The notes under the pieces were generated by a model. It worked only from the letters and a program-made list of their open reading frames with translations, was not told the origin of the DNA and ran no database searches. 33,143 nucleotides of DNA, from NCBI GenBank assembly GCA_022340245.1, contig JAJDOI010000126.1, forward strand, positions 1 to 33,143, read 5' to 3'. The translations under genes and the position numbers were made by a program. The stretch is from Thiogranum sp. (GTDB lineage: Bacteria > Pseudomonadota > Gammaproteobacteria > DSM-19610). Every line of letters starts with the position of its first letter. The first letter of the stretch is position 1. This document shows, piece by piece, positions 15,323 through 19,092 of the stretch.

Positions 15323-16404
15323 TGCTGCTGTACCTGAGCGACTACCTGGCGCAGTACTACAGCGGCTTCAATGTCTTTCAGTACCTGACCTTGCGCGCCA
15401 TTCTCGGGGTGCTGACGGCGCTGATTATTTCTTTCATCGTCGGCCCGGTCATGATTCGCCACTTGAGTTTCCGCCAGATCGGCCAGCAGGTTCGCAACGA
15501 CGGGCCGGAATCGCACCTGTCCAAGGCCGGTACGCCGACCATGGGTGGGGCGCTGATCCTGGTGGCGATCGCCGTGGCCACCCTTTTGTGGGCCGACCTG
15601 GGTAATCGCTACATCTGGGTGGTGCTGATGGTGACGCTGGCGTTCGGCGCCATCGGCTGGGTGGATGACTACAAGAAGATCGTCTACGGCAACAGCAGGG
15701 GACTGTCGGCCTGGTCAAAGTACGGCTGGCAGTCGCTGGCAGCCCTGACCGCTGGCCTGTACCTGTTCTACACGGCAGAGTCGCCCGCCGAAACCCAGTT
15801 GATCGTGCCGTTTTTCAAAGACATTGCGCTGCCTCTGGGCGCCTGGTACGTGCTGGTGGTGTACTTCGTCGTGGTCGGGTCGAGCAATGCGGTGAACCTG
15901 ACTGACGGACTGGACGGACTCGCGATTTTGCCCACGGTGCTTGTCGCCGGCGCCCTGGCGGTGTTTGCCTACGCCACGGGTAATTTCAATATCGCCGGTT
16001 ACCTCGGCATACCCTTTATCCGCGACCTCGGTGAGGTGGTGGTTTTCTGCGGCGCTATGGTTGGGGCGGGGCTCGGCTTCCTCTGGTTTAACGCTTACCC
16101 GGCGCAGGTATTTATGGGCGACGTGGGTGCGCTTGCGCTGGGCGCGGCGCTCGGCATCGTGGCGGTGCTCACGCGCCAGGAACTGGTGTTTTTTATGATG
16201 GCCGGGGTGTTCGTCATGGAAACCGTATCGGTGATTCTGCAGGTCGCGTCATTCAAGTTGACCGGGCGGCGCATATTCCGCATGGCGCCGCTGCATCACC
16301 ATTTCGAACTCAAAGGCTGGCCGGAACCACGTGTCATTGTGCGTTTCTGGATTGTGACTGTGATCCTGGTGTTGTCCGGTCTGGCGACACTCAAGATTCG
16401 TTGA
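15322..16404 (+). CDS. mraY: Phospho-N-acetylmuramoyl-pentapeptide-transferase
   Basis: MraY is the ten-helix inner-membrane enzyme that makes lipid I by transferring phospho-MurNAc-pentapeptide to undecaprenyl phosphate. The product is 360 residues, the same length as the E. coli enzyme. Key signatures are [11 protein letters not shown], the aspartate pair in [30 protein letters not shown] and the histidine-rich [15 protein letters not shown]. The ATG at 15322 shares its A with the murF stop. After it the cluster shows its first real gap, about 115 bp to murD, and that gap contains a tiny membrane ORF. Confidence 0.98.
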
Positions 16405-16420
16405 CGAAAGGCAGGTAACG

Positions 16421-16495
16421 ATGGACGAGAAGGGTCAGATAGCAGTGGTGAGCGTGACTTTCGTGGTCATTGCCGTGTTGTTGGTGTTGATCTGA
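16421..16495 (+). CDS. Putative 24-residue single-span membrane microprotein
   Basis: I do not recognise this product. A complete ORF starts at ATG 16421 with a purine-rich AGGCAGGT 4-5 nt upstream and ends at TGA 16493-16495. It encodes MDEKGQ followed by an unbroken hydrophobic run of 18 residues (IAVVSVTFVVIAVLLVLI) to the last codon. The charged start and the hydrophobic end predict a short membrane anchor with the N-terminus inside. It lies 16 bp after the mraY stop and 24 bp before murD, in an operon where neighbours otherwise overlap, so it would be co-transcribed with them. It is too short for usual gene finders. Chance occurrence in spacer DNA is the alternative; the ribosome-binding site and the lack of any charged residue in the hydrophobic run argue against it. 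Confidence 0.5.
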   Translation: MDEKGQIAVVSVTFVVIAVLLVLI

Positions 16496-16519: not shown

Positions 16520-17887
16520 ATGTTAGCGGCAGAGCACTTAATGGAAACTGATTTACAGAGGGAACCCCGTACGCTGGTGGTCGGCCTTGGTGTGACCGGG
16601 CTGTCCTGCGCGCGCTTCCTGGTGAAGCAGGGCGTGGAGGTCGCGGTGACCGACACTCGCGACCAGCCGCCGGCAGTCGCGCGGATTCGCGAGGAGCTGC
16701 CTGATGTCGCCCTGTTCCTGGGTGGTTTTGACGCCGATATCTTCGCCCGTGCGCAGCGTGTCGTGGTCAGCCCGGGTGTGTCGCCGCAGCAGCCGCTGAT
16801 TGCCGCCGCACAACAGCGCGGTGTCGAGGTTATCGGTGATATCGAGCTGTTTGCGCGCAGCGTGACGGCGCCGGTGATTGCCATTACCGGTTCCAACGGC
16901 AAGAGCACCGTGACTACCCTGGTGGGGGAAATGGCCCGTCAGGCAGGCAAACAGGTGCGCGTCGGCGGCAACCTCGGCACCCCGGCGCTCGACCTCATCG
17001 AAGACCGCGAGCCGGACCTGTATGTGCTGGAGTTGTCGAGCTTTCAGCTCGAAACAGTTTCCAGTCTACGCTGTCGCGCGGCGGTGGTGCTCAATGTCAG
17101 TCCCGACCACCTCGATCGCTACGCTTCCATGGGTGACTATATTTGCGCCAAACAGCGTATCTATGCCGGCGCGGCTCTGCAGGTCGTGAATCGTGACGAT
17201 ACGCCGGCAGCGGCGCTGGCTGTCGGTGCCGGGCAGCTCGTGAGCTTCGGTCTGGATGAGCCCGGGGGAGCGCTCGACTTCGGTGTTGTCGGTACCGGTG
17301 CGGATGCGTGGATCGTACGTGGCAGTCAACGCTGGATGCCGGTGGCACAGTTGCGTATAGCCGGCCGCCATAACCTTGCCAATGCGCTCGCGGCGCTGGC
17401 GCTGGGCGATGCAGCGGGTCTCGACAAGCAGGCCATGCTGCAGGTGTTGCACGAATTTCAGGGATTGCCTCACCGCACCCAGTGGGTCGCCGAACACAAC
17501 AGTGTCGCCTGGTACAACGACTCCAAGGCCACCAACATCGGCGCAACCCTGGCCGCGGTACACGGCTTCGACGGGCCAGTGGTGCTGATCGCCGGTGGCC
17601 AGGGGAAGGGCGCCGACTTTGCGGAACTGGCCGCCGGTCTGGACAGGCGCGTGAAGGCGGTGGTACTGATCGGCGAGGCGGCCGAAGAAATACAGCAAGC
17701 CCTGGGCAAGTGCATGCCGACCCGTCGCGCGGACTCCATGCGGGCAGCCGTTCACCTGGCCGCGCAATTGGCGCAGGCCGGCGATCGCGTGCTGTTGTCT
17801 CCGGCCTGCGCCAGTTTTGATATGTTCGACAACTATCAGCATCGCGGCGCGGTGTTCATGCAGGCGGTGCAGGAGTTGCTGTCGTGA
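16520..17887 (+). CDS. murD: UDP-N-acetylmuramoylalanine--D-glutamate ligase
   Basis: MurD adds D-glutamate to UDP-MurNAc-L-alanine with ATP. The 455-residue product (E. coli 438) carries the N-terminal nucleotide-sugar fold VVGLGVTGLSCARFL, the P-loop AITGSNGKST (about 121-130), VGGNLGTPALDL, ELSSFQLE, LNVSPDHLDRY and the C-terminal NDSKATNIGATLAA and LLSPACASFDMFDNY. Two starts are possible, ATG 16520 and ATG 16541 (METDLQ), and neither has a strong Shine-Dalgarno. The second gives a tail closer to E. coli length, so the first seven residues are uncertain. Its stop overlaps the ftsW GTG by 3 bases. Confidence 0.96.
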   Translation: MLAAEHLMETDLQREPRTLVVGLGVTGLSCARFLVKQGVEVAVTDTRDQPPAVARIREELPDVALFLGGFDADIFARAQRVVVSPGVSPQQPLIAAAQQRGVEVIGDIELFARSVTAPVIAITGSNGKSTVTTLVGEMARQAGKQVRVGGNLGTPALDLIEDREPDLYVLELSSFQLETVSSLRCRAAVVLNVSPDHLDRYASMGDYICAKQRIYAGAALQVVNRDDTPAAALAVGAGQLVSFGLDEPGGALDFGVVGTGADAWIVRGSQRWMPVAQLRIAGRHNLANALAALALGDAAGLDKQAMLQVLHEFQGLPHRTQWVAEHNSVAWYNDSKATNIGATLAAVHGFDGPVVLIAGGQGKGADFAELAAGLDRRVKAVVLIGEAAEEIQQALGKCMPTRRADSMRAAVHLAAQLAQAGDRVLLSPACASFDMFDNYQHRGAVFMQAVQELLS

Positions 17888-19092
17888 GTCTCGCGCTACT
17901 GTTGCCTGATATGCCGGCACGTCGGGGCAATCATCTGCCACCACTGGATCTGGTGCTCGTCGCGGCGGTCACCGCGTTGTTCTCCATCGGTCTGGTGATG
18001 GTGACGTCGGCGTCGATGCCGGTGGCCGAGCGCCTGGGAGTCGGAACTTTCCATTTCGCCATTCGCCAGAGTATCTACCTGGGTCTTGGTCTGTTGCTCG
18101 GGCTCCTGGTGCTGCGCGTGCGCATGGCCATCTGGGAACGCGGCAGTCTGGCCTGTATCCTGTTCGCCATCCTGTTGCTGCTGGCGGTGTTGTTGCCGGG
18201 TGTCGGCATGGAGGTCAACGGTAGCAGCCGCTGGATCAATCTGGTCATCTTCCGCCTGCAGGTCTCGGAGCCTGCCAAGTTGCTCGCGCTGATTTACATG
18301 GCGGGCTACCTGGTGCGGCGCGGCGATGAAGTGCGGTACACGGGTGCGGGCTTCCTCAAGCCACTTGGGCTGCTGTTGATTGTGGCGCTGCTGCTTCTGC
18401 TGGAACCGGATTTCGGCGCCACCGTGGTGTTGATGACAACGGCGCTGGTGATGATGTTCATGGCCGGTGTCAGCCTGTGGAAATTCGGTGGCCTGATCGC
18501 CGCGGCGGGTGCCGCGTTCGCAACCCTGGCTATTACCTCACCCTATCGCCTGAATCGGCTGACGGCGTTTGTCGACCCATGGAACGACCCGTTCAATACC
18601 GACTTTCAGCTGACCCAGTCGCTGATTGCCATCGGGCGCGGGGAATGGTTCGGTGTCGGCCTCGGCGCGAGTATCCAGAAACTGTTCTATCTTCCCGAGG
18701 CCCACACCGATTTCGTGTTCGCCGTGCTGGCAGAGGAACTCGGTCTGGTGGGTATCCTGGTATTGCTGGGCCTGTACGCCCTGGTGGTGTACCGCGCTTA
18801 CCTGATTGCCGCCAGGGCCGAGCAGGGCGGCAACCAGTTTGCCGCCTACCTGGCCTATGGCATCGGCACCTGGCTGGGTATGCAGGCGCTGATCAACGTG
18901 GGCGTGAACACGGGGCTGTTGCCGACCAAGGGCCTCACCCTGCCGCTGCTCAGCTATGGCGGCAGCAGCATGCTGGTTACCTGTGTCGCCGTCGCACTGC
19001 TGTTGCGTATCGATTATGAAATGCGCTGCACGGTGAACAGCCTGGCGCCTTCCGGAACCGCTGTCGCGCGGCGGCGCAGGAAGCGGTCATGA
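17884..19092 (+). CDS. ftsW: Probable peptidoglycan glycosyltransferase FtsW
   Basis: FtsW is the SEDS-family glycosyltransferase that polymerises septal lipid II together with FtsI. The 402-residue product (E. coli 414) has about ten membrane helices. It carries NGSSRWINL and FRLQVSEPAKL after helix 3-4, LLEPDFGATVV, and the extracytoplasmic loop with AFVDPWNDPFNTDFQLTQSL, GRGEWFGVGLG and the catalytic aspartate 276 in EAHTDFVFA. The C-terminal end is LPTKGLTLPLLSYGGSSM followed by a basic tail (RRRRKRS). The start is GTG 17884, overlapping the murD stop (GTGA). Its position between murD and murG separates it from the paralogue RodA. Confidence 0.97.
   Translation: MSLALLLPDMPARRGNHLPPLDLVLVAAVTALFSIGLVMVTSASMPVAERLGVGTFHFAIRQSIYLGLGLLLGLLVLRVRMAIWERGSLACILFAILLLLAVLLPGVGMEVNGSSRWINLVIFRLQVSEPAKLLALIYMAGYLVRRGDEVRYTGAGFLKPLGLLLIVALLLLLEPDFGATVVLMTTALVMMFMAGVSLWKFGGLIAAAGAAFATLAITSPYRLNRLTAFVDPWNDPFNTDFQLTQSLIAIGRGEWFGVGLGASIQKLFYLPEAHTDFVFAVLAEELGLVGILVLLGLYALVVYRAYLIAARAEQGGNQFAAYLAYGIGTWLGMQALINVGVNTGLLPTKGLTLPLLSYGGSSMLVTCVAVALLLRIDYEMRCTVNSLAPSGTAVARRRRKRS

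Follow-up and report, generated by a model that had tools for sequence, protein, structure and literature searches.

A conserved short gene between mraY and murD encodes a predicted membrane microprotein in two groups of Gammaproteobacteria

Introduction

CydX is a small single-transmembrane (TM) subunit encoded in the operon of its membrane complex. KdpF, likewise a single-TM peptide, joins a membrane complex with which it shares its operon (PMC3618439). MgtR of Salmonella, a single-TM peptide of 30 aa encoded in the mgtCBR operon, binds MgtC by an Ala-coil, i.e., via the heptad-spaced small residues A10/S17/A24, and promotes MgtC degradation by FtsH (PMC6813294). Such peptides act by binding to a membrane protein encoded in their own operon, whose stability or activity they alter (MgtR, PMC6813294; KdpF, PMC3618439). 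A membrane protein acting on MraY is known from phages: the phiX174 lysis protein E acts near Phe-288 in helix 9 of this enzyme (PMC11812184).

Here, we analyze a short open reading frame (ORF) in the dcw cluster of Thiogranum sp., contained in a stretch of 33,143 nucleotides analyzed as a whole (contig JAJDOI010000126.1, hereinafter the window), and its homologs in related genomes. Few bacterial operons have been studied as intensively as the dcw cluster; our search of open-licence papers found no description of a small protein at mraY–murD, which is not proof of absence. The ORF represents a real, new, lineage-specific microprotein family in this cell-wall operon; that it is coding is close to certain.

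Results

The ORF and its genomic context

The gene order of the dcw run in the window is mraZ, mraW, ftsI, murE, murF, mraY, murD, ftsW, murG, murC, murB, ddl. The upstream gene mraY (15325–16404, plus strand) ends with a stop codon at 16402–16404, and the downstream gene murD (16520–17887, plus strand; PF21799, PF08245, PF02875) begins with the ATG at 16520, so that 115 nt lie between them. The microprotein gene of 24 codons occupies positions 16421–16495 of the plus strand, and its translation is MDEKGQIAVVSVTFVVIAVLLVLI followed by TGA, with a polar head at residues 1–6 and a predicted single TM helix at residues 7–24. The gene ftsW (17884–19092, plus strand; PF01098, 351.8 bits) belongs to the same operon. 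An alternative in-frame ATG of murD is present at 16541. Elsewhere in the window, a SAM hydroxide adenosyltransferase gene (1319–2107) immediately follows that of ribosomal protein L17.

The ORF had been proposed in a first-pass annotation as complete inside the 115-bp gap, and its start, stop, translation, and coordinates all proved exact. The plausible Shine–Dalgarno sequence that had been claimed corresponds to AAGG (16408–16411) and AGGT (16413–16416) on the plus strand, 4 to 12 nt ahead of the ATG; the claimed charged hexapeptide is MDEKGQ, and the 18 residues following it up to the stop are indeed uncharged. The accompanying statement that nearly all dcw junctions overlap holds for murE/murF, murD/ftsW, ftsW/murG, and murG/murC, but not for murF/mraY, which are 2 nt apart, nor for murC–murB, with a gap of about 55 nt.

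Distribution of the peptide

The junction was located via MraY in 56 relatives, MraY homologs being found in 53 of the 56 genomes. Two groups are considered below: the window's family, i.e., Thiogranum-like Gammaproteobacteria (20 genomes; Thiogranum is assigned to Ectothiorhodospiraceae in NCBI taxonomy), and a second order (11 genomes). Every genome of the family (20/20) has a homolog of 24–27 aa at mraY–murD, e.g., MDEKSQIAIVGVTFVVIAVVLVLL (L003), MDEKSQIVLVGLTFAVIAVLLVIL (L006), MHEKDQMAIVGVTFVVITILLMLL (L011), and MDVRSQMAIVGVTLAVISLVLLVVV (L019). The profile search yields a single strong match in each of these 20 genomes, at 48–59 bits, vs. 14 bits for the next best match. Outside the family, the scan of the class (369 genomes) adds two matches that are weaker but clear, and each lies at mraY–murD. 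In the second order, the peptide is present at mraY–murD in 10 of the 11 genomes, e.g., MDLRIQMKIVGLTFLLMSLLWLVL; one diverged form, MDLRWQFGVVAILFLGMGLVFWVM, is missed by the profile, and we infer its homology from its position, which is the same, and its length of 24 aa. Both carrier groups together have the peptide in 30 of 31 genomes, in a single copy per genome.

The sole second-order genome without the peptide, G389 (L110), has lost the gene; hence, the peptide is not indispensable in this order. G389 has a short mraY–murD gap and the longest MraY branch of the second order (0.45). A comparable short hydrophobic ORF is absent from about 80 mraY–murD junctions of other gammaproteobacterial families, and the scan of the phylum (398 genomes) gave no further convincing match. 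In the MraY tree, based on a small outgroup sample and with several forks open, the family and the second order form one clade (92/85), for which one gain and one loss suffice.

In two members of a close outgroup family, L128 and L129 (MraY 79–80% identical), 114–118 nt separate mraY from the MurD nucleotide-binding motif; this stretch lacks a hydrophobic ORF and is possibly a relict. Long, poorly conserved N-terminal extensions of murD, or uncertain murD starts, are seen in the same gap in L018, L149, L153, and L173, which come from other families.

Coding evidence and selection

Lack of conservation of the start, the stop, or the hydrophobic stretch in relatives, or indels that shift the frame among them, had been named in advance as marks of a spurious ORF, and none of these is seen. 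The start codon is ATG in 30 of 30 homologs, the length is 24–27 codons, all 30 have an unbroken hydrophobic run with no charge past position 8, and no indel among the homologs compared shifts the frame. Inside the ORF, gaps in the DNA alignment occur only at the 3' end; the flanking sequences cannot be aligned. Shine–Dalgarno 4-mers at −18 to −5 precede 28 of 30 homologs, compared with 17 expected when the same bases are shuffled.

The first-pass annotation had suggested looking for a conserved peptide with synonymous-biased substitutions in related gaps. Changes are mostly synonymous, and purifying selection is evident from the codon model: omega is 0.115 for the family, 0.295 for the second order, and 0.149 for all sequences; omega = 1 is rejected with 2ΔlnL of 160, 24, and 185, respectively, the loss in log-likelihood being 80, 12, and 93 units. 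Differences at codon positions 1, 2, and 3 are in the ratio 797:269:1509 (family pairs). Given this rejection and the profile scores in all genomes of the family, the ORF is far beyond chance. It provides a clear example of a very short gene with a single origin, retained by selection, and the claim of a membrane microprotein is well supported by the conserved start, length, and hydrophobic run along with this selection.

The open frame could in principle be incidental to a conserved RNA element or a regulator site, and one terminator-like stem does lie inside the ORF in the window; however, RNAalifold yields a consensus of 6 pairs and only −1.5 kcal/mol, Rfam gives no match, and third codon positions are free to vary, so that this explanation is scarcely credible.

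Among relatives, the ORF is found in each of the three possible frames with respect to mraY; therefore, initiation is independent of mraY, and readthrough from, or fusion with, MraY is ruled out. Two possible sources of the peptide were rejected as well, its scores being no better than those of shuffles both for the last MraY helix (p 0.13) and for the MurD N-terminus (p 0.73).

Peptide anatomy

With 24–27 aa and one hydrophobic helix, the peptides fall within the size range of single-pass microproteins (less than about 50 aa). Position 6 is Gln in all 30 homologs, and Val10, Thr13, and Phe14 are nearly fixed. Positions 7, 10, 14, 17, and 21 form a heptad stripe with 3-4-3-4 spacing (Ile/Met7, Val10, Phe14, Ile/Met17, Leu/Trp21). 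Conservation at these a/d positions exceeds that at the remaining ones (p ~0.002, with the positions picked after viewing the columns and relatedness ignored by the test). Small residues are found at position 11 in 29/30 and, similarly, at position 18 in 29/30. Conservation tracks a helix of 100 degrees per residue (moment p 0.007–0.014 in a permutation test that ignores relatedness), which suggests that the helix uses one of its faces to pack on a partner. In the second order, most members have Arg4 or Lys8, and by the positive-inside rule these residues suggest an N-in topology for this order, the family members being less clear; membrane insertion of the peptide with its N-terminus inside is the predicted arrangement.

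The same pattern bears on a possible role of the ORF in cis, whereby translation of the short frame would pass ribosomes from mraY to murD, set the MurD level, or tether the mRNA to the membrane, with the peptide itself of little function. In some relatives (L010, L013) the stop codon does lie 2 nt before the next ATG, as such a device would have it. Yet amino acids are conserved on one helix face while synonymous change is free, the distance to murD is variable, and the other junctions, some 80 in number, do without such an ORF; a cis role is accordingly improbable.

Similarity to known families

Searches of Pfam, PHROGs, and PDB gave no significant match to the peptide, and no relative was found in the phage, plasmid, and viral collections. 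In NCBIfam, a resemblance to MgtR (NF033229) stays below the threshold, the best match having 17.7 bits (E = 0.0025) against a curated cut-off of 35. It is confined to two of 27 members, L096 and its near-identical twin L097, both from the second order. L096 (1501–1572) aligns to the model over 17 residues, 8–24 on 7–23, with Gly11 and Ser18 falling on Ala10 and Ser17.

These searches, together with the genomic context, also concern the idea that the operon harbors a membrane-active toxin, either resembling type I toxins or descended from a lysis peptide of a phage. Such toxins are similar in size and hydrophobicity, and MraY is inhibited by a membrane protein of phage phiX174, protein E (PMC11812184). 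A toxin would, however, sit oddly with a stable single copy within an essential operon, with the absence of a promoter-like site nearby on either strand, and with the lack of relatives in phage records, plasmids, and viral contigs; we consider this origin very unlikely.

Discussion

The reading that we rank first, with about an even chance, is that the peptide is a single-pass inner-membrane microprotein and, as a small subunit, assists or regulates a co-expressed membrane protein, with MraY as the first candidate. The peptide would be translated from the dcw mRNA right after MraY, and its lone helix would pack on a TM helix of the co-expressed membrane protein via the heptad stripe, with the small residues 11 and 18 beside the stripe and the invariant Gln6 at the membrane edge. 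The putative partner may be stabilized, inhibited, or activated. In the sequences read, the ATG of the microprotein gene is 7–28 nt past the mraY stop, often with the Shine–Dalgarno sequence touching the stop; because of this closeness, translational coupling with MraY is predicted, and MraY is ranked first and FtsW, two genes on, second among the candidate partners. Coupling would fix the ratio of the peptide to MraY.

Comparison of MraY from carriers and non-carriers identifies no residue that cleanly separates the groups, and hence lends no positive support to MraY as the partner; the only carrier-linked site is weak, Ala146 (in the trimmed sequence), present also in 3 of 11 non-carriers. 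This is one of the observations consistent with a rival view, in which the peptide is a true membrane microprotein but interacts with FtsW, with a different divisome protein, or with itself as a homo-oligomer, the gene being at mraY–murD only by origin. The coding evidence serves this reading equally well, ftsW is 1.4 kb downstream of the ORF in the same gene run, and the left-handed heptad stripe would also suit a homodimer. That the gene stays next to mraY may be due to no more than the stable organization of the dcw cluster. On the other hand, in all carriers read, the ORF follows the mraY stop closely, which suggests that its translation is coupled to MraY synthesis, and we regard a partner other than MraY as possible but somewhat doubtful.

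Returning to MraY, we tentatively consider, as one joint proposal held with less than even confidence, that the peptide is an undescribed lineage-specific integral subunit of MraY, a single helix setting the activity or stability of the lipid I-making enzyme, and that it is the cell's own equivalent of phage protein E, acquired in a single event by the common ancestor of two gammaproteobacterial orders. Binding to MraY, if it occurs, would make the peptide a natural modulator of an essential antibiotic target that does not come from a phage.

The earlier suggestion that the peptide modulates MraY or FtsW is plausible by analogy with the described systems. Like MgtR, it is an operon-encoded single-helix peptide beside membrane-protein genes; unlike MgtR, it is found in another operon (at mraY–murD in all 30 carriers, not with mgtC/mgtB) and has other partner genes. 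Compared with the Ala-coil of MgtR, the peptide has small residues at positions 11 and 18 (29/30 each), while the third, position 25, would be past the end of most members. The likeness of L096 and L097 to MgtR is a parallel rather than membership in this family, and is probably convergent. KdpF and CydX are similarly operon-encoded single-TM peptides of about 25–40 aa, but they belong to other operons, and Pfam and NCBIfam give no sequence match. Protein E of phiX174 differs in being viral, larger, and lytic, with no match of the peptide in phage or viral collections; still, as a small membrane protein acting on MraY, it provides a precedent for such control.
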